Virus record (IMG/VR): IMGVR_UViG_3300007276_000231
Span: 1 to 27,850 of that record
DNA: 27,850 nt
Origin: a virus
Strand: one strand, 5' to 3'
Shown here: one piece after another, positions 8,431 to 27,850 of the stretch
Position numbering within the stretch: the first letter of the stretch is position 1
Layout of the letters: every line of letters starts with the position of its first letter
Translations under genes and position numbers: made by a program
The notes under the pieces: generated by a model
The model's input: the letters and a program-made list of their open reading frames with translations, nothing else
The model's database searches: none
Told to the model about the DNA's origin: nothing

Positions 8431-8832
8431 TTAAGCATTAAATTCGTCCCATTGAAGCGGGACGGCGATAGTCACGATGAAGTAGGGTTCGTCAGAACGT
8501 TCACCTTGCTTGTAGGGTATGCCGCAGCGATAGCTTTCTGACAATGTTGCGTTTCGGAAAAGCGTCATAAGCGTGTCAGCATAGCCATAGGCCGCTGTCG
8601 TGCCTGCCCCGCCGTCCACGTATAATTCAAGGAAAACCACGGTCACGTTGCGCGTCATGTTTGTACCGGGCGAACCAAAAGAGGCTTGGAACGATTGAAC
8701 GGCAGGGAATGACACCAAGACTTCGGGCGTGTTGATTGCGCCGCTGAACCCCGCATAAGTCACGTTGACGCCAGACGGCAACCCGCTTGCAAGTTTCGTT
8801 TCAAAGTGCTGGCGGGCAAGTTGCATACTCAT
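8431..8832 (-). CDS. Tail terminator / tail completion protein (gpU-like)
   Basis: A 133-aa protein directly before the tail tube gene. Size and position match tail terminators, which form a hexameric ring ending tube growth and joining tail to head. The sequence has a helical N-terminus (MSMQLARQHFETKLA) followed by beta-strands (TRNVTVVFLELYVDG, EPYFIVTIAVPLQWDEFN), with the C-terminal strand pattern common to this fold. The ATG at 8832 overlaps the upstream stop as ATGA. A 15-nt gap to the tube gene carries that gene's ribosome site. The assignment comes mainly from synteny, size and secondary-structure pattern; no diagnostic motif was identified. Confidence 0.7.
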   Translation of the reverse strand: MSMQLARQHFETKLASGLPSGVNVTYAGFSGAINTPEVLVSFPAVQSFQASFGSPGTNMTRNVTVVFLELYVDGGAGTTAAYGYADTLMTLFRNATLSESYRCGIPYKQGERSDEPYFIVTIAVPLQWDEFNA

Positions 8833-9227
8833 GTGAATTGTACCTGCAATCTTGCGAACGTAACGCCGAACATGCCGAGCGGCGCTTGCTCGCTGGAATG
8901 CCCGCCCTCAAGCCGCTCAATATACGGCAGATTATTCTGCACGTAGACCACCGCATATGGGTCGTTGTCAGCGTTGATAGTTGCGCTGCCTTTTGCCTTG
9001 GTTGCTTCGCCGTTCTTGTCAGTGTCATCAGTGAACGTGGCATCAGGGGATTTTACCGAAACAATTGTATTGCCCCGCGCCCGCCCGCTTTTAACTGGCA
9101 TTATCAACGTCACGCCTGCCAATGCTTGAAGCGCGATTGATTGCTTCAAGTTCATCAAGTCCTTGCTTTCAATTCGTGCGAACTCTTTTTCCATTTCAAA
9201 TTTGAATTGTGTGACGCCGACGCTCAT
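8829..9227 (-). CDS. Neck / tail completion protein (HK97 gp10-like)
   Basis: A 132-aa protein with the profile of the HK97 gp10-like neck family: a helical N-terminus (KEFARIESKDLMNLKQSIAL), a middle MPVKSGRARGNTIVS strand region, and a C-terminal DPYAVVYVQNNLPYIERLEGG followed by HSSEQAPLGMFGVTFARLQ. The region of Tyr-Ile-Glu-x-Leu-Glu-x-Gly-x-Ser near the end is the feature I rely on. Such proteins sit at the head-tail interface. Both ends overlap neighbours as ATGA, so translation is coupled. The exact ring position in the neck cannot be told from sequence alone. Confidence 0.75.
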   Translation of the reverse strand: MSVGVTQFKFEMEKEFARIESKDLMNLKQSIALQALAGVTLIMPVKSGRARGNTIVSVKSPDATFTDDTDKNGEATKAKGSATINADNDPYAVVYVQNNLPYIERLEGGHSSEQAPLGMFGVTFARLQVQFT

Positions 9228-20930: not shown

Positions 20931-20996
20931 ATGTCTAAAGTTTTACCAGCAACTCACGCTGCGCACAAGCACAAGATGCGCAGGTGTTGCATATGA
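20931..20996 (+). CDS. Possible 21-aa coupled leader frame
   Basis: ATG at 20931, with AAAGG 9 nt upstream, opens a 21-codon frame (MSKVLPATHAAHKHKMRRCC plus I) ending in a TGA that overlaps the next ATG as ATGA. The coupling and ribosome site suggest it is translated and delivers ribosomes to the DUF1376 gene. The product is basic with two adjacent Cys; any function of the peptide itself is unknown. Confidence 0.5.
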   Translation: MSKVLPATHAAHKHKMRRCCI

Positions 20997-21781: not shown

Positions 21782-22304
21782 TGATGCTTACACGCTGGAC
21801 CGCACGCGCACTTGCCTGAAATTGTATTACGACCCGGATATGGGCTTTGAAGAACGTGCCGACATGATGGACAGCTATCGCAAGGCGCTGTCAGCGCGTC
21901 CCAAGTGGGCAGTCGCCAAGGCTTTCGATGAATGGGAACGGACAGGGACGCGCAGGCCATCACCAGCCGATTTGAATATCCTTGCAGGTAGGGCGATGCA
22001 GGTTTTGACCGACGAACTGGCAAGGCGCGAAAGGCTGGCGGGCGAACCAAAACAAACCATTGCAGAGCGCACCGACGATGAGCGGGCGGTCGGGTTGCTG
22101 GCGATGCAAAAAGCAGGCTTTACCCCGAAGCGGTTGCAAGCTGTGAGGCGCAAGCGCATGGCGAAAAGCGAGGCGGAATTGTATCAACAGACGGCTTTGG
22201 AACGTGAACCGCATTGGGCAGATGTTGCCGCGCCTGACAGTCCCGAAATGAAAGCGCTGCGCAAGGCCCGCGCAGGCAACCCGCTGATGTTTCCAAACGA
22301 ATGA
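21660..22304 (+). CDS. Hypothetical replication-module protein downstream of DUF1376 gene
   Basis: A 214-aa protein from the ATG at 21660, which lies 122 nt inside the DUF1376 gene and has GAAAGG about 8 nt upstream; GTG at 21735 is an alternative start. The conserved-looking part begins near residue 38 (DDAYTLDRTRTCLKLYYDPD) and continues MDSYRKALSARPKWAVAKAF and RPSPADLNILAGRA, a compact helical region. It then becomes a charged helix (DELARRERLAGEPKQTIAER). No ATPase or nuclease motif is visible. Its place next to the DUF1376 gene suggests a partner in replication initiation, such as a helicase loader or DNA-binding co-factor. It ends in an ATGA overlap with the HNH gene. Confidence 0.75.
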   Translation: MDTQSKLPAQTSTQRIANTPAALAKVKSTSDLTQAIHSAGDDAYTLDRTRTCLKLYYDPDMGFEERADMMDSYRKALSARPKWAVAKAFDEWERTGTRRPSPADLNILAGRAMQVLTDELARRERLAGEPKQTIAERTDDERAVGLLAMQKAGFTPKRLQAVRRKRMAKSEAELYQQTALEREPHWADVAAPDSPEMKALRKARAGNPLMFPNE

Positions 22305-22750
22305 AGCGCACCGAAATCAAACGCAAAACCGAGTTGAAGCGCGGCGCTGAAATCATCCCGTTCAATAAAGCAACCAAGCAGGCGGCGAAATTCAAGCGGA
22401 GGCCCGCCAAACAGCCCGCTACAAGCGCAACTGCCGCCGCCGAGCATATGGCATGGGTCAGAACATGCGAATGCCACGTGTGCGGCAGATTTGGGCCGAG
22501 CGAGGCGCATCATGTATTCCACGACAGGCACAGCAACCGACGCCCTGCGGACTGGCTGACAATCCCGCTTTGCCAAGAATGCCACCGCGAAGGGCGGCAC
22601 GCCATTCACAAGGAAAAGCGGACGTGGCGATTTACGCACGGCCCTGATTATGGCTATGTTCCGCTTTACCTGCAATCCAGCCCCGTAGATGGCGCACTGA
22701 CTGACGGGCTGGATGCGCTGGCGCGGTATTTGGAGCGCGACGAAAAATAG
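22301..22750 (+). CDS. HNH-type nuclease with zinc site (DUF968/Ref-like)
   Basis: A 149-aa protein with a very basic N-terminus (MKRTEIKRKTELKRG, then KFKRRPAKQ), probably for DNA binding. It is followed by a zinc-binding HNH core: CHVCG (C58, C61), SEAHHVFHDRH (H70, H71), PLCQECH (C91, C94, H95) and HAIHKEKRTW (H100, H103). The pattern resembles the DUF968/Ref group of phage recombination nucleases. Its start overlaps the upstream stop as ATGA. Its TAG stop forms part of the next promoter element. The likely role is in recombination or DNA processing; a terminase-associated HNH role is less likely because it is not beside the terminase genes. Confidence 0.85.
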   Translation: MKRTEIKRKTELKRGAEIIPFNKATKQAAKFKRRPAKQPATSATAAAEHMAWVRTCECHVCGRFGPSEAHHVFHDRHSNRRPADWLTIPLCQECHREGRHAIHKEKRTWRFTHGPDYGYVPLYLQSSPVDGALTDGLDALARYLERDEK

Positions 22751-22782
22751 GTGTTGCATATCCCGTCTGCGTTTTATAAAGT
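22749..22782 (+). promoter_or_regulatory. Early promoter B with the repeated GTGTTGCATATCCC element
   Basis: AGGTGTTGCATATCCCGT (22749-22766) is identical over 18 nt to the element at promoter A. TTGCAT is followed after 17 nt by TAAAGT (22777-22782). The leader then has TCACTAAGGCAACCAACCAA and CGGAGA before the ATG at 22817. The element starts within the stop codon of the HNH gene. Confidence 0.65.
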
Positions 22783-22816
22783 CTCACTAAGGCAACCAAC
22801 CAACGGAGATAACCAA

Positions 22817-23107
22817 ATGAGAAATTCCATCATCACAATCGACATGCAGGGCGCGGCATTCCGCATCACGCAGGAGAATTTCAACGGCGGCGATTTGGTC
22901 AACAAATCCACGCTGACAACGCAATCCCGCAACGGCACGTTTGCCCACGCGCCGCAGGTTTTATCGCTGGTCAGCGCATTCATTGCAGCCCGCCCCGTGC
23001 CGCATACGCTTATCGTGACGGCAGAGGCAGAAGCCAATCTTGCTGTTGATGATGTCGAGGAAATCATGCGCAGAGTTGGCGCGACACGCAAGCAGGTGAC
23101 AGCATGA
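22817..23107 (+). CDS. Hypothetical protein, 96 aa
   Basis: A 96-aa protein starting at the ATG at 22817 with CGGAGA upstream. A longer frame from GTG at 22751 would run through the promoter and is rejected. It begins MRNSIITIDMQGAAFRITQE and has a central TFAHAPQVLSLVSAFIAARP and an acidic VDDVEEIMRRVG end, a mixed alpha/beta pattern. No catalytic motif is seen and I do not recognise it. It is first in the unit driven by promoter B and overlaps the next gene as ATGA. Confidence 0.8.
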   Translation: MRNSIITIDMQGAAFRITQENFNGGDLVNKSTLTTQSRNGTFAHAPQVLSLVSAFIAARPVPHTLIVTAEAEANLAVDDVEEIMRRVGATRKQVTA

Positions 23108-23394
23108 GCCAGCGCATCACAATAAAGCACCTCGAGGCCAAAGCGCGGACGCTCAACAAAATCGCGGGCCAACCGCTTGAGCCTTACACGCGCACCGAGG
23201 GCGGCGACTTAGTTGCCTGCCCCGGCAATTATCACATCAGCGGCGCTTATGGCGGATACCAGCTTGAGCGCATGTCAACCGAAGGCGGCGGCGTGACAAT
23301 CCCCGTTAGCACGGGCCACATTCCAGCGCGTCAATGCGCCCTTGTGATTGATGCTTTTATTCTGGGCTACAGCGCAGCGAAGGAGAACGCATGA
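23104..23394 (+). CDS. Hypothetical protein, 96 aa
   Basis: A 96-aa protein overlapping the previous stop as ATGA and the next start as ATGA. It begins MSQRITIKHLEAKARTLNKI, a helical stretch, then Gly-rich strands (PGNYHISGAYGGYQLERMST), and a C-terminal helix CALVIDAFILGYSAAKENA. This layout resembles small phage proteins of unknown function with a helix-sheet-helix fold. No metal-binding or catalytic residues stand out. It belongs to the promoter B unit. Confidence 0.8.
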   Translation: MSQRITIKHLEAKARTLNKIAGQPLEPYTRTEGGDLVACPGNYHISGAYGGYQLERMSTEGGGVTIPVSTGHIPARQCALVIDAFILGYSAAKENA

Positions 23395-23549
23395 CCCAAG
23401 ACGAGCGCAACGAAATCCAGCAGGTGATTGATTTGGCAATGGACGAAATCGAAACCCTGTCCAACCCGTCCAGGCGGCTGAACCGCGTCGGGCAATTGGT
23501 TGAAATCATAACAGCGAACAAACTCAAACTAGCGAAGGAAACAGAATGA
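23391..23549 (+). CDS. Hypothetical helical protein, 52 aa
   Basis: A 52-aa frame with ATG at 23391 and TGA at 23549. Both ends overlap neighbours as ATGA, and an AGGAGA ribosome site precedes it. It is predicted mainly helical (MTQDERNEIQQVIDLAMDEI, then RRLNRVGQLVEIITANKLKL) and ends AKETE. The KETE ending and the start of the next gene form a junction sequence that recurs elsewhere in the window. Function is unknown; the heptad-like spacing would allow dimerisation. Confidence 0.75.
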   Translation: MTQDERNEIQQVIDLAMDEIETLSNPSRRLNRVGQLVEIITANKLKLAKETE

Positions 23550-23740
23550 ACATTGGGAAATGGGAAAACCCAGAACTGTATCAAGCCGCAATTATTTTTC
23601 AGAAAGGCGGCAACTCAAAAGGCGTCTTTTCGATAATCAAAAAAATGACACCAAACGACCAATGCAGATTTGCCCTTATACTTATGAAAGCCCTAGAAAT
23701 AGAAAAAGAGAGAGAAAATGACCCAAGAAGAACTAGATAA
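23546..23740 (+). CDS. Small paralogue 1 of a tandem pair, 64 aa
   Basis: A 64-aa protein starting in an ATGA overlap. It shares with the following gene a gap-free pattern at a constant offset of eight residues: GKW (4-6), N-P (8-9), A-A (14-15), K-M-T (33-35), D38 and R41. This indicates duplication and divergence. The encoding DNA is more A/T-rich than the flanking genes. It ends in basic residues (DPRRTR) where it overlaps the next gene by 23 nt. I do not recognise a known family; the fold is probably helical. Confidence 0.75.
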   Translation: MNIGKWENPELYQAAIIFQKGGNSKGVFSIIKKMTPNDQCRFALILMKALEIEKERENDPRRTR

Positions 23741-23960
23741 AATCATCAAAGGCAAATGGGACAACCCATCATTGTTTTACGCGGCGGAAGCAACAATGAT
23801 GATGGGCCAAGCGCATTTGACAAAAAAGATTACCAACAAAATGACCTATGCCGACAGGGTTAGGTACTTCGATAAATTGTTCCGCGAAATGACAAGATCT
23901 GACCAATCTTACGTGCTCAAAGTAATGGAAAAAGACATAGAGAAAAAGGAAACAAAATGA
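23718..23960 (+). CDS. Small paralogue 2 of a tandem pair, 80 aa
   Basis: An 80-aa protein with a GAGAGA ribosome site inside the end of the previous gene. Residues 12-49 align with paralogue 1 (GKW at 12-14, N-P 16-17, A-A 22-23, K-M-T 41-43, D46, R49). The N-terminal extension MTQEELDKIIK and the longer C-terminal helix (SDQSYVLKVMEKDIEKKETK) are its own. It is A/T-rich, like paralogue 1. It overlaps the next gene as ATGA within a repeated junction sequence. Function is unknown. A helical, possibly self-associating pair or heterodimer with paralogue 1 is possible. Confidence 0.75.
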   Translation: MTQEELDKIIKGKWDNPSLFYAAEATMMMGQAHLTKKITNKMTYADRVRYFDKLFREMTRSDQSYVLKVMEKDIEKKETK

Positions 23961-24640
23961 ACATCGGACACAACAACCCGCCAGCAAAATTTGAACTGCG
24001 CGAAAAGAAAGCGGGCCTACTGCCCGAAATCGAAAACTGGCTAGACGGCCAGCGCGTCGAAAATGAGGACCAGATGGCGGCGGTTGATGCGCTGACAGGC
24101 GAAGTTAAAGCACTGGCAAAGGACTTTGAAGCAGAAAAAGAAACCGAATACCGCCCGCACAAGCTGGCCTGCGATGCTGTTGTCGCTGAATACAAGCCCG
24201 ACCTGAAAGACCTAGACGATTGGGTCAAGGGGCTGAACGCCATCAACGGCGCATACAAAATCAAACTGGCGGCGGCAAAGAAAGCCGAGGCCGACGAAGC
24301 CCGCCGGGAAGCGCAAGAGGCCGCACGGCTGGCACAGATAGCGCAAGAACAAGCCGACTATGGCAACCTTGAAGAACGCCGCCACGCCGACGAACAAGCC
24401 GCCGCAGCGCGTGAAATCGAGCGCAACGCGCAGGCGATGGCAAAAGACAAACCCAAGGGCCTGCGCACGACCAAGCGCACCCGCGTCACCGACTACAAGG
24501 CGCTCATCAATCACATTGCCCGCGAGGACAAAGACGCGGTTGCAGCCTTTTGCGATATTTGGGCGGCGAACTACTACCGCGAAAACAAGGAAATCATCGA
24601 CGGTTGCTTTGATTTGGTTGCAGAGACAAAAGCCGTTTGA
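23957..24640 (+). CDS. Coiled-coil phage protein beginning MNIGHNNPP, upstream of SSB-like gene
   Basis: A 227-aa protein. The MNIGHNNPP start is a familiar opening of a phage family that sits beside single-strand DNA binding or annealing genes. A long charged coiled coil covers residues about 90-165 (AAAKKAEADEARREAQEAAR, then LAQIAQEQADYG). The C-terminal domain (RTTKRTRVTDYKALINHIA, then WAANYYRENKEIIDGC) is a small conserved-looking module. It starts in an ATGA overlap with paralogue 2. The likely role is in DNA replication or recombination together with the downstream SSB-like protein; this is by association only. Confidence 0.78.
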   Translation: MNIGHNNPPAKFELREKKAGLLPEIENWLDGQRVENEDQMAAVDALTGEVKALAKDFEAEKETEYRPHKLACDAVVAEYKPDLKDLDDWVKGLNAINGAYKIKLAAAKKAEADEARREAQEAARLAQIAQEQADYGNLEERRHADEQAAAAREIERNAQAMAKDKPKGLRTTKRTRVTDYKALINHIAREDKDAVAAFCDIWAANYYRENKEIIDGCFDLVAETKAV

Positions 24641-24664
24641 CCTCGCCGCAATTTAGTATAAGAT
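24637..24664 (+). promoter_or_regulatory. Candidate promoter upstream of the SSB-like gene
   Basis: TTGACC (24637-24642) is followed after 16 nt by TAAGAT (24659-24664), with TATAAG overlapping at 24657. It lies at the end of the previous gene, about 45 nt before the SSB-like start, in the only sizeable gap of that region. It lacks the GTGTTGCATATCCC element, so it would belong to a different promoter class. Confidence 0.45.
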
Positions 24665-24707
24665 CACAATGCGGAAACGCTAAACCCCAAAACAAGGAAA
24701 CTGAAAA

Positions 24708-25340
24708 ATGAAGATACCAGAACCCACAGCAGGCGGCGACTTTGAGCCAACGCCAGAAGGACAATTTACCGCCATATGTGCGCGGTTTGTTGACCTTGGA
24801 ACGCAGACAGTCGATAGCATCCACGGCATCAAGCATCAGCATAAGGTGATGATTGGCTGGGAAATCCCAGAAGTGCGCGTGACTGACCAAGACGGCAAAG
24901 ACGCGCCAGCACTGCACCAAGAACGCTATACTTGGTCAATGCACGAAAAGGCAAATCTGCGCAAAGTGCTTGAGGCATGGCGCGGCGTCAAATTTAAGGA
25001 AGCCGACTTCAACACCTTCGACACGAAAACGCTGATTGGTGTGCCTTGCTTGATGCAGATTGTCCATAATGTCGGCAACAACGGCAAGACTTACGCCAAC
25101 ATTCAAAGCGTCATGCGCTCGCCTGTCAAAAAGGATGATTGGCCCAAGCTGGAAGGCGTGCCGATTTACCTATCGCTGGCCGACTTCAATCAAGCCGAAT
25201 ATGACAAGCTGTCGGACTACTGGCAGAACCTTATCGCTGAAAGCCCAGAGTTCAAAACGATGAAGGGCATCAAGTCAGGCAGCGATGAAAACGGCGGCGA
25301 CGACTGGCGCAAAGATATGGAAGATGAAATTCCATTCTAA
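24708..25340 (+). CDS. Phage single-stranded DNA-binding protein-like
   Basis: A 210-aa protein whose C-terminus GDDWRKDMEDEIPF is an acidic tail ending in Ile-Pro-Phe, the classic partner-binding tail of bacterial and phage SSBs. The body (HQHKVMIGWEIPEVRVTDQD, then QERYTWSMHEKANLRKVLEA and WRGVKF, and TLIGVPCLMQIVHNVGNNGK with TYANIQSV) has the strand pattern of an OB-fold family common in phage replication modules. A ribosome site is modest (AAGGAAA). It would coat single-stranded DNA during replication and recombination, and fits beside the coiled-coil protein upstream and the nucleases nearby. Confidence 0.85.
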   Translation: MKIPEPTAGGDFEPTPEGQFTAICARFVDLGTQTVDSIHGIKHQHKVMIGWEIPEVRVTDQDGKDAPALHQERYTWSMHEKANLRKVLEAWRGVKFKEADFNTFDTKTLIGVPCLMQIVHNVGNNGKTYANIQSVMRSPVKKDDWPKLEGVPIYLSLADFNQAEYDKLSDYWQNLIAESPEFKTMKGIKSGSDENGGDDWRKDMEDEIPF

Positions 25341-25348
25341 ACAACCCG

Positions 25349-25370
25349 GCGGGCGGCTTCGGTTGCCCGC
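25349..25370 (+). other. 22-nt cUUCGg hairpin 8 nt after the SSB-like stop codon
   Basis: GCGGGCGGC pairs with GTTGCCCGC around TTCG, nine consecutive pairs with two G-U wobbles and the exceptionally stable C(UUCG)G closure. The wobbles exist only in the plus-strand RNA, so it is a structure of the coding transcript. No T-run follows. It lies between the SSB-like gene and a 75-aa gene and may protect the SSB mRNA 3' end or reduce downstream expression. Confidence 0.6.
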
Positions 25371-25396
25371 TTCAATCAACCAACGGAGAATGAAAA

Positions 25397-25624
25397 ATGG
25401 CATGCAATAAAATCACAACACCAGCAGAGCATAGAGCGCTTTTGCTTTCAGCAATGGAAGCAGTGTGCGAGGGCAGATTGAATGTATCACAGGCAAACGC
25501 GCTTGTCGGGCTATCTGGCGAACTGCACAAAAGTATCCGCCAAGAATGGGACATGCGGACATATGCCGCCGAAAACTTGTCACTAAAGCACGGCCAAGTC
25601 GTGAAAATGCTAGGGGCGGACTGA
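25397..25624 (+). CDS. Hypothetical helical protein, 75 aa
   Basis: A 75-aa, mainly helical protein with CGGAG upstream of the ATG. It begins MACNKITTPAEHRALLLSAM and contains the stretch EGRLNVSQANALVGLSGELH and KSIRQEWDMRTYAAENLSLK, which resembles a helix-turn-helix or small bundle, and ends GQVVKMLGAD. The NVSQANALVGLSGELHKSI phrase is common to many small phage proteins of unknown role. It overlaps the next gene as TGATG. DNA binding is possible but not established. Confidence 0.75.
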   Translation: MACNKITTPAEHRALLLSAMEAVCEGRLNVSQANALVGLSGELHKSIRQEWDMRTYAAENLSLKHGQVVKMLGAD

Positions 25625-26031
25625 TGGCAAAAGCCAACCCAAATTCGCCATTCTATTGGGAGTGGGGCCGAAAGTATGAGGCCGAATACCAATTAGTTGA
25701 AAGGTGCGGTGTAATGCTTGGTAAAATCATGGGCAAGCGCAATGTCAACTTTATAAAAGTTCACCTAAATCGGTCAACAGCTGAAAGGTTTTCGGCTACT
25801 GCGCACCATTCATCCAGAGAGTGCTTGATTGAAGAATTTAAAGGCGGGTTGCGACACGGGAATTGGGCCGCAAGACATGGTTTCATTTATAGGTATTTTG
25901 TCTCTGATGATTTAGTTTGCGTCTTTAAGATTGAGGACAACGACGCCAACATTTACAAAATTAAAGTTTTGCGCGAACTCGCGGGCGCATATTGCGACAC
26001 AGAGCCATCCCGCGTTCAAATGATGATGTAA
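25624..26031 (+). CDS. Hypothetical protein, 135 aa, A/T-rich gene
   Basis: A 135-aa protein from the ATG at 25624, which overlaps the previous stop as TGATG; a longer upstream frame lies inside the previous gene and is rejected. Its DNA is visibly more A/T-rich than its neighbours. The sequence (NSPFYWEWGRKYEAEYQLVE, later RHGFIYRYFVSDDLVCVFKI) is aromatic-rich and mixed alpha/beta. I do not recognise it. No catalytic cluster is evident. Composition suggests acquisition separate from the flanking genes. Confidence 0.75.
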   Translation: MAKANPNSPFYWEWGRKYEAEYQLVERCGVMLGKIMGKRNVNFIKVHLNRSTAERFSATAHHSSRECLIEEFKGGLRHGNWAARHGFIYRYFVSDDLVCVFKIEDNDANIYKIKVLRELAGAYCDTEPSRVQMMM

Positions 26032-26065
26032 CCGCAAATTGATTTAACCAAAGGAGAATGAAACC

Positions 26066-26275
26066 ATGTCACAGAACAACGTAATTCTAAGCCACCTGCG
26101 CACCCGCCCCAACATCACGCCGATTGAGGCGCTGAATAAATACGGGTGCATGAGGCTGGCGGCTCGCATCAGGGATTTGCGCGACGGCGGCAATCACATC
26201 GAAATGACGCTGATACCGACAAACAGCGGCAAATGGATTGGCAGCTATTCACTGGTGAAGGAAGCGGGGCAATGA
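26066..26275 (+). CDS. Small helix-turn-helix protein (phage HTH family)
   Basis: A 69-aa protein with AAAGGAG before the ATG. The sequence SQNNVILSHLRTRPNITPIE, then ALNKYGCMRLAARIRDLRDG, and NHIEMTLI matches a common small phage winged-helix family (I associate it with Pfam HTH_39), in which LxxxGxxRLAxRIxDLR is the recognition part. It probably binds DNA, for regulation or replication. Its stop overlaps the next start as ATGA. The target cannot be inferred, although the repeated promoter elements in this window are candidate sites. Confidence 0.82.
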   Translation: MSQNNVILSHLRTRPNITPIEALNKYGCMRLAARIRDLRDGGNHIEMTLIPTNSGKWIGSYSLVKEAGQ

Positions 26276-26622
26276 CGGTTGAACTATTCACCAACACGGG
26301 CGGCATCAGCCGGGAAGCCGCTGACCGCGCCGTGCAATGGCTCGTTGACCACGCCGAGGAAATCGCCAGACGGAAAGCCATGATGGTTTATCATGAGGAC
26401 CGCTTGCGCGTTGTTAAATCAACCGCGATGGCGCTGTCTGACGAAAAGTCCATCGCGGCCAAAGAGGCGGAAGCCTATCGCAGCGGCGTCTATGAAACCG
26501 CAGTCGAAGAACGCAGGAACGCCGTGTTTAACTATGAGCGGCTGATGAATAGCAAAATGGCATGTATTGCAACAAAGGAACTATTCCAGACCTTTGAAGC
26601 ATCATTGAGGCACATCGTATGA
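26272..26622 (+). CDS. Hypothetical coiled-coil protein, 116 aa
   Basis: A 116-aa protein from the ATG at 26272 (ATGA overlap); an in-frame extension upstream lies inside the HTH gene and is rejected. It is nearly all helical: DRAVQWLVDHAEEIARRKAM, then VYHEDRLRVVKSTAMAL, and AAKEAEAYRSGVYETAVEER. It ends in KELFQTFEASLRHIV. The repeated Ala/Glu pattern with KEAEAYR resembles a phage protein family with no known role, found beside replication and recombination genes. It overlaps the next start as ATGA. Confidence 0.78.
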   Translation: MTVELFTNTGGISREAADRAVQWLVDHAEEIARRKAMMVYHEDRLRVVKSTAMALSDEKSIAAKEAEAYRSGVYETAVEERRNAVFNYERLMNSKMACIATKELFQTFEASLRHIV

Positions 26623-26825
26623 CCAACATTATGAACCGACTGAAAGAAGCAGAAAGCCTTTATGAAAGGGCAGGGCTTCACGGGACTAATGGCGCTGCGC
26701 TGATGTATGATGCCCAAGCGCACATCAAAAAGCTGACGACTGCGCTTAAAAAAATAAAATCCCACGCGGGCGATGATGCCTATCACACGGCAATCGCTGC
26801 CGAAGCATTGAAGGAAACAGAATGA
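26619..26825 (+). CDS. Hypothetical helical protein, 68 aa
   Basis: A 68-aa, helical protein with ATGA overlaps at both ends. It begins MTNIMNRLKEAESLYERAGL, then GAALMYDAQAHIKKLTTALK, and ends AEALKETE. The last codons and the next start (GAAGGAAACAGAATGAACA, 26810-26828) repeat exactly the junction at 23534-23552. No function is recognised. Its charged helices would allow dimerisation or binding to a partner. Confidence 0.75.
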   Translation: MTNIMNRLKEAESLYERAGLHGTNGAALMYDAQAHIKKLTTALKKIKSHAGDDAYHTAIAAEALKETE

Positions 26826-27211
26826 ACAACGAACTAACATCGTGGATTTATGTAATCGGAGCATATGAAACGCTTAATTTTGTTAAAATTGGAGCTACCA
26901 CACATTTGCCTCACCATGGTCGATTACAACAGCTACAGACAGGAAGCCCGCATAAACTTCATGTTCATGGGTTTCACCCCGTGCAGACAGAAAAACTTCT
27001 CGCCGCTGAAAAGCGAACACACGCCAGACTTGAGGCTAATAAAATGGTTGGTGAGTGGTTCAATATAAGCCCGCGAAAAGCGCTACTTATCGTTAGAGAT
27101 GTCACCGAGCAATTTTATGGAAAGAAGTTGGCGAGATGCTCCAAAAAATTTGCGCCATATTCATACGCCGTGCATGGACCAACCGAGAAAGAAATGGAGA
27201 ACGCCGAATGA
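26822..27211 (+). CDS. GIY-YIG superfamily protein (T5orf172/MUG113-like)
   Basis: A 129-aa protein with the motif set of the T5orf172/MUG113 branch of the GIY-YIG fold: WIYVIGAY (8-15), FVKIGATT (20-27), GRLQQLQTGSPHKL (33-46, with the conserved Arg34), AEKRTHARLE (62-71, Glu63 and His67), and GEWFNI (77-82). The catalytic set looks complete, so nuclease activity is possible. The gene is clearly more A/T-rich than neighbours and is entered through a repeated junction sequence, suggesting a mobile or recently acquired gene. Homing or anti-competitor activity is conceivable; DNA repair is an alternative. It overlaps both neighbours as ATGA. Confidence 0.82.
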   Translation: MNNELTSWIYVIGAYETLNFVKIGATTHLPHHGRLQQLQTGSPHKLHVHGFHPVQTEKLLAAEKRTHARLEANKMVGEWFNISPRKALLIVRDVTEQFYGKKLARCSKKFAPYSYAVHGPTEKEMENAE

Positions 27212-27411
27212 CTGACATGGAAAAGATGCTCAAAGCGGTTGAAAAATACGCCGAGCGCAAAGGCTGGAAGCCATCCACCGTGCTGCAATACGCCGCCAAC
27301 GCGGGTTCCCGCTATGAGGCGCTGAAAGCAGGCGAGGTTGATATGACCAGCAAGGTGATGGCTCGCGTTTACGCCTACATCAAAGCTGACGGCAAGGACT
27401 TGAACCCCTGA
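27208..27411 (+). CDS. Small hypothetical, possibly HTH-type protein, 67 aa
   Basis: A 67-aa protein from the ATG at 27208 (ATGA overlap); the frame extends upstream into the GIY-YIG gene but that part is rejected. The sequence DMEKMLKAVEKYAERKGWKP, then STVLQYAANAGSRYEALKAG, and EVDMTSKVMARVYAYIKADG has the spacing of a short helix-turn-helix (helix, turn with KPSTVLQ, helix), similar to small phage regulators. DNA binding is inferred. The next gene starts in a TGATG overlap. Confidence 0.75.
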   Translation: MTDMEKMLKAVEKYAERKGWKPSTVLQYAANAGSRYEALKAGEVDMTSKVMARVYAYIKADGKDLNP

Positions 27412-27599
27412 TGCCTCGGTGTTTCCACGCAGGCTGCGCAAACAACGCGCCACACGGCCTTCGCTTGTCGGGGTTTAGGTCTGACTTGCCAGCGGACAAG
27501 CGAGGCTATCTGTGGCACTGCGAGGAACACCGGGCAGAAGCCGAACAGCGTTGGCAGGTTGCCGAGGCGAAGCGGTCGGGAAAACGAGTGGCAAAATAA
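27411..27599 (+). CDS. Small zinc-finger-like protein, 62 aa
   Basis: A 62-aa protein with Cys4, Cys9, and a WHCEEH group (with further His), suggesting a small zinc-binding knuckle. It begins MPRCFHAGCANNAPHGLRLS and ends in a basic helix (AEQRWQVAEAKRSGKRVAK). It overlaps the previous stop as TGATG and is followed immediately by promoter element C. Such proteins are common in phage genomes as metal-binding DNA or protein adaptors; the role here is unknown. Confidence 0.72.
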   Translation: MPRCFHAGCANNAPHGLRLSGFRSDLPADKRGYLWHCEEHRAEAEQRWQVAEAKRSGKRVAK

Positions 27600-27630
27600 G
27601 TGTTGCATATCCCCTGATTAGTAGTAATCT
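27599..27630 (+). promoter_or_regulatory. Early promoter C with the repeated GTGTTGCATATCCC element
   Basis: GTGTTGCATATCCC recurs at 27600-27613. TTGCAT (27603-27608) is followed after 16 nt by TAATCT (27625-27630). A leader with TCACTACGACAACCAACCAA and CAAGGAGA follows before the ATG at 27668, closely matching the leader of promoter B. It opens the gene block running off the right edge. Confidence 0.65.
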
Positions 27631-27667
27631 GTCACTACGACAACCAACCAACCAAGGAGAACGACCA

Positions 27668-27850
27668 ATGATTTATTTCCACGCAGTAATGCTCGACGAA
27701 TGCGGAATGGAATTTGGGGTAGGCATCAGCGCCAAAACCAAAGACGACGCCCGCGAAGCGCTGGCCGAAGCCTTCCCCGAAAATCGCGGCATCGTGCAGA
27801 TTGAAAGCACCGAGGACGCCGCCAAGCGCGAGCGGGCCATGTATGACCGA
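27668..27850 (+). CDS. Hypothetical protein, C-terminus cut by window edge
   Basis: An open frame from the ATG at 27668 to the right edge (61 codons, no stop). An AAGGAG ribosome site lies 9 nt upstream and promoter element C precedes it. It begins MIYFHAVMLDECGMEFGVGI, then SAKTKDDAREALAEAFPENR and GIVQIESTEDAAKR, an alternating strand-helix-strand pattern of a small alpha/beta fold. I do not recognise it. It is the first gene of a new unit whose remainder lies outside the window. Confidence 0.75.
   Translation, partial: MIYFHAVMLDECGMEFGVGISAKTKDDAREALAEAFPENRGIVQIESTEDAAKRERAMYDR

Follow-up and report, generated by a model that had tools for sequence, protein, structure and literature searches.

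A translation-initiation sequence repeated in a phage early region was probably copied as small genes entered

We analyzed a viral DNA stretch of 27,850 nucleotides (IMG/VR record IMGVR_UViG_3300007276_000231, positions 1 to 27,850; hereafter the window), in which the sequence joining one small early gene to the next recurs elsewhere. A scan of the sequence recovered the exact 19-base repeat GAAGGAAACAGAATGAACA at 23534-23552 and 26810-26828 on the + strand, as had been reported in an earlier reading made from the sequence alone (the sequence-only reading). The diverged third copy in that reading is also present, with 2 mismatches, and starts at 23945 rather than 23946. The copies and the genes around them are as follows.

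23391..23549, + strand: g23391, 52-aa gene ending LAKETE-stop; no relatives found
23534..23552, + strand: copy 1 (J1), GAAGGAAACAGAATGAACA; SD AAGGA, spacer, ATGA formed by the g23391 stop and g23546 start, first codons
23546..23740, + strand: g23546, 64-aa orphan, 37% GC; paralogue of g23718; starts MNIGKWENPEL
23718..23960, + strand: g23718, 80-aa orphan, 40% GC; paralogue of g23546; ends KKETK-stop
23945..23963, + strand: copy 3 (J3), AAAGGAAACAAAATGAACA; 17/19; ATGA overlap of g23718 and g23957
23957..24640, + strand: g23957, 227-aa DUF1351-like recombination-module protein; phrog_10477 'exonuclease'; starts MNIGHNNPP
24708..25340, + strand: 210-aa protein; phrog_862, no Pfam match; ends MEDEIPF
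26619..26825, + strand: g26619, 68-aa gene ending ALKETE-stop; no relatives found
26810..26828, + strand: copy 2 (J2), identical to copy 1; ATGA formed by the g26619 stop and g26822 start
26822..27211, + strand: g26822, 129-aa T5orf172/MUG113 gene, 44% GC; its start lies in copy 2

A rightward early gene starts at each of the three copies, which comprise the SD AAGGA, an A-rich spacer and a 4-nt ATGA overlap of stop and start. Each is an ATGA junction whose SD lies within the upstream gene. Judged by this anatomy, the 19-mer is a translation-initiation region, which would couple translation of the two genes that it joins. The genes upstream of both exact copies do end in KETE, as the earlier reading stated, and ORF translation gave KETK-stop for the gene upstream of copy 3. 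Since an SD and a stop in one frame largely force the KETE ending, it is no sign of homology, and comparison of the two KETE-ending genes, g23391 and g26619, yielded no alignment and no detectable homology. The likeness between copies ends abruptly on either side of the 19-mer; copies 1 and 3 are alike slightly further into the coding sequence (ATGAACATYGG, 20/23). A distance of 3276 bp separates the two exact copies, and the DUF1351-like gene falls within it.

The genes bounded by the copies differ in composition from their surroundings. GC content is 38% for the orphan pair g23546 and g23718 and 44% for g26822, compared to 54% for the window, and GC segmentation placed change points at 23494 and 23965, adjoining copies 1 and 3, with 38% GC in between. 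The orphans are tandem paralogues (38% over 39 aa, E 2e-8). Of the two, g23546 has no counterpart to the N-terminus of g23718; it begins MNIG instead, as g23957 does, a start that would fit duplication of the g23957 junction when the orphan pair entered. Searches of phages and IMG/VR found no relatives of the small genes g23391, g23546, g23718 and g26619. The description of the gene after copy 2 as A/T-rich and GIY-YIG-like was borne out: g26822 scored above both Pfam cut-offs (38.1 bits versus 22.3 and 31.0 versus 20) for T5orf172 and MUG113, which belong to Pfam's GIY-YIG clan. Only distant matches to g26822 were found, in Sinorhizobium and Agrobacterium phages, and a search with peptide patterns found no relatives in IMG/VR. 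A homing endonuclease gene would be expected to invade a specific cut site in genomes that lack it, and no close relative lacking g26822 was found. The placing of g23957 in a recombination module is supported by the DUF1351-like annotation beside ERF in phage phiGT1.

Other features of the early region also recur. A homologue of the 75-aa early gene at 25397-25624, at 82% identity, sits amid late head genes in the related phage L168 (G018:C1:31227-31448), which suggests that this small gene is mobile. The 24708-25340 protein had no matches beyond PHROGs of unknown function; its tail, MEDEIPF, looks like the acidic tail typical of single-strand-binding proteins. An element, GTGTTGCATATCCC, is repeated on the + strand before three early operons (19352, 22751 and 27600), and behind it come, each time, an A/T stretch that resembles a promoter and a AACCAACCAA..GGAG/GGAA leader. 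A fourth copy, GTGTTGCATA, lies at 20984, at the start of a DUF1376 gene. This element looks like a repeated early promoter.

We searched for the 19-mer in other genomes. There were no exact matches among the 2.9 million viral contigs of IMG/VR, and it was absent from 85 orthologous junctions preceding DUF1351-like homologues, where the best match had 5 mismatches. The eight exact copies in GTDB contigs were all in unrelated bacterial genomes. Thus, relatives do not share the 19-mer as a boundary sequence, and its failure to recur at their variable gene junctions is the outcome by which the sequence-only reading had proposed to judge itself wrong. Close relatives of the early region were likewise not recovered. 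Megablast of this region against annotated phages gave no match, comparison of the DNA at 22301-27850 with 48 related records gave scattered short matches only, and the phages closest by terminase (G002, 80%) carry another early region.

We considered whether the copies could have arisen by pure convergence, in which a strong ribosome-binding start in an A-rich leader was reached three times independently, with no recombination history or role. The 19-mer is the kind of sequence that starts favor, as 7 of the 8 GTDB copies are at ORF starts and its 18-mer core AAGGAAACARAATGAACA was found in 119 or more unrelated viral contigs, 104 of which have it at the start of an ORF of at least 40 aa. The confinement of the likeness to the start region also fits this explanation. 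Dinucleotide-shuffled windows contained 0.01 matches to the 19-mer on average, but plain shuffles are too lenient because start regions look alike. A site-by-site position model of the phage's own starts, built from its other 18 + strand starts, nevertheless expects only about 1e-5 pairs identical at 19/19 (9e-6, or 1.7e-5 using ATGA junctions only). Among 3842 ATGA-junction pairs in related-phage loci, one was identical at 18/19 positions and none at 19/19. Scoring in-register identical runs across 2760 start junctions, we compared 3.8 million non-homologous pairs from different loci, a set that retains some homologues; 68 had runs of at least 16 nt, and 4 of these had runs of at least 19 nt. 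The latter rate predicts approximately 2e-4 for the 210 start pairs of the window. Within loci, runs of at least 16 nt occurred as three distinct cases in 18,725 pairs, one of which is the window itself. As copies 1 and 3 also fall at composition change points, convergence is unlikely. From these statistics, we infer that the three copies descend from one another and did not originate independently.

We next describe start-region repeats in relatives, defined as phages linked to the window through terminase or the DUF1351-like gene, whose loci were scanned for repeats covering the SD and start. Such repeats were present in L159 (30 nt), L019 (20 nt), L109 (19 nt), phiGT1/L085 (19 nt) and L111 (16 nt). 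They are identical within one genome and different from genome to genome, and they mark the ends of small genes that have been gained or lost. The longest genuine case is in L159, where an exact 30-nt repeat (6759 and 7005) spans the SD and start in each of two neighboring small genes. In the named, isolated Sulfitobacter phage phiGT1, gene phiGT1_32 (8643-8885) has a perfect 19-nt SD/start repeat on both sides; no relative of phiGT1 in which this repeat could be tested was found.

Two natural recombinants were evident in these relatives, in other phages than the window and at other repeat sequences. L166 is equivalent to L019 lacking 814 bp, exactly one repeat period, with a single 20-nt copy at the join and flanks identical at 496/500 and 597/600 positions (99.2-99.5%). 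Similarly, L115 corresponds to L121 lacking 414 bp (one gene between copies), with a hybrid 16-nt junction and flanks identical at 249/250 and 250/250 positions. Since the L115 junction combines the variant base of the left copy with the flank of the right copy, the crossover took place within the 11 nt AAAACATGACA. At one place, a gene (gene X) is present in L115, L121 and L122 and missing from L111, L117 and L119. Long and short forms derive from different metagenome contigs; for the right-hand L019 copy, three contigs have the long form and one the short form. ERF is encoded beside the junctions in L019, L121, L115 and L117. In L074, three consecutive genes (6809, 7204 and 7626) begin MTAAERN..., two of them near copies, and L019 lacks 817 bp at these genes, with the join at the shared start.

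A wider survey of gene-size indels revealed that joins often touch gene starts. Where loci had been selected on protein similarity, the joins touched called gene starts in 9 of 32 cases (6.5% expected, P 1.5e-4), while in a second, pattern-selected set, which is biased because its contigs were picked for holding a start-region pattern, 13 of 22 did so (5.7% expected, P 2e-11); both P values are rough, as some events are interrelated. Because an initial strict start-region filter missed clear cases, we inspected the join contexts manually and called gene starts with a simple program. Some joins scored as negative are gene starts by eye, such as GGAGCAACGACAATGAAAA, while others are plainly off gene starts, as for the L141/L147 join, which lies inside a gene. 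By eye, 7 of 7 gene-size indel joins with a repeat of at least 10 nt in the pattern-chosen contigs L183-L301 have an SD-like motif, on one strand. Since selection against broken genes also drives joins to gene starts, and short SD-ATG matches arise at joins because all starts look alike, only the repeats of 16-20 nt clearly exceed this background and argue for homology.

Local tandem duplication, in which the repeats are leftovers of duplicating a small gene together with its junction and the genes later diverged, is a less probable source of the copies than convergence. It would account for the tandem paralogy of g23546 and g23718 and for the similar beginnings of g23391 and g23718 (27 nt, 74%). 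However, the genes flanking the exact pair are unrelated, both upstream (g23391 and g26619) and downstream, where they belong to different families, and coding sequences would have had to diverge far while the junctions remained identical. We rejected as highly improbable a regulatory role of the kind proposed for start-associated sequences (SAS) in Cluster K mycobacteriophages, in which conserved copies would bind a factor or serve coordinated translation of a gene set: although the 19-mer lies at the SD and start and has several copies in the non-structural half, there are only three, all in ATGA overlaps and unconserved across relatives, while the SAS (PMC3203893) is a 13-bp sequence (GGGATAGGAGCCC) with 11-19 copies per genome, mostly after gaps of more than 50 bp and conserved across the cluster. 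A site-specific cassette system was also deemed unlikely, since the SD and start account for the repeat and no paired recombination site was noticed.

The explanation that we favor, and consider probable, is that a start-region repeat was copied within this genome as small A/T-rich genes entered, and that its copies can recombine as their counterparts do in relatives. The A/T-rich gene pair at 23546-23960 most likely entered at the junction before the DUF1351-like gene, an event that would have left one junction copy on either side, and the GIY-YIG-clan gene g26822 probably acquired the same junction. A copy contains the ribosome site along with the stop and the start, so an exchange between any pair of copies would insert or remove genes and still leave a single intact junction. 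Deletion between copies 1 and 2 may not be tolerated, because the DUF1351-like gene sits between them. Likely agents would be ERF-type single-strand annealing recombinases or replication slippage. No recombinant at the 19-mer was seen and, as the searches turned up no close relative for the early region of the window, we infer recombination at the window's own copies by analogy with the natural recombinants observed in related phages. Thus, the proposal that these junctions are recombination points and a hotspot for small accessory genes holds in kind, through the repeats of relatives, the two natural recombinants and the GC steps at copies 1 and 3, but not as worded, since the 19-mer itself was found in no relative.

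This class of junction is known in outline. Lambdoid boundary sequences are short, lie at gene junctions and are proposed to provide homology for the swap or loss of small genes (summarized in PMC3029335). The 19-mer shares these properties, and frames survive because the junction is kept. Unlike lambdoid boundary sequences, which are common to related phages, it was found in no relative, and each phage has its own start-region repeat. In the mycobacteriophages Island3 and Brujita, two copies of a short repeat flank a small gene in one phage, while the other lacks the gene and has one recombinant copy (PMC3029335). The recombinants in our relatives resemble this case, in that one copy is left where the gene is missing; however, the Island3/Brujita repeat is ~50-60 bp and lies at gene 3′ ends, whereas the repeats described here are 16-20 nt and cover ribosome site and start codon. 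Like the Cluster K SAS, the 19-mer is repeated at the SD of several early genes, although it differs from the SAS in sequence; the SAS sections of PMC3203893 describe no recombination role. What sets the present repeats apart is that every genome has one of its own, which coincides with the ribosome site.

Rad52-like recombinases (Red-beta, RecT and ERF) drive phage mosaicism by relaxed recombination (PMC3945230, PMC2327257) and recombine short, diverged homologies (PMC3945230). As in these systems, short homologies would be joined during phage replication, and ERF genes lie near the junctions of relatives. However, Rad52-like recombination has been measured on longer, diverged homologies, and the window, which is a fragment, yielded no ERF gene.

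How phages trade small genes without breaking reading frames has long been debated, with boundary homology on one side and random joining followed by selection on the other. In relatives, the crossovers of natural recombinants can be placed within 11-20 nt of SD-start region, while the window contributes a candidate cassette whose edges show steps in composition. With these genome-private repeats, the boundary-homology idea becomes testable beyond the lambdoid phages. More tentatively, ribosome-binding starts may serve phage early operons generally as recombination substrates that are private to each genome. If so, any two starts identical over 16-20 nt would turn the genes between them into a cassette that can be removed, and phages would not need to have a boundary sequence in common.
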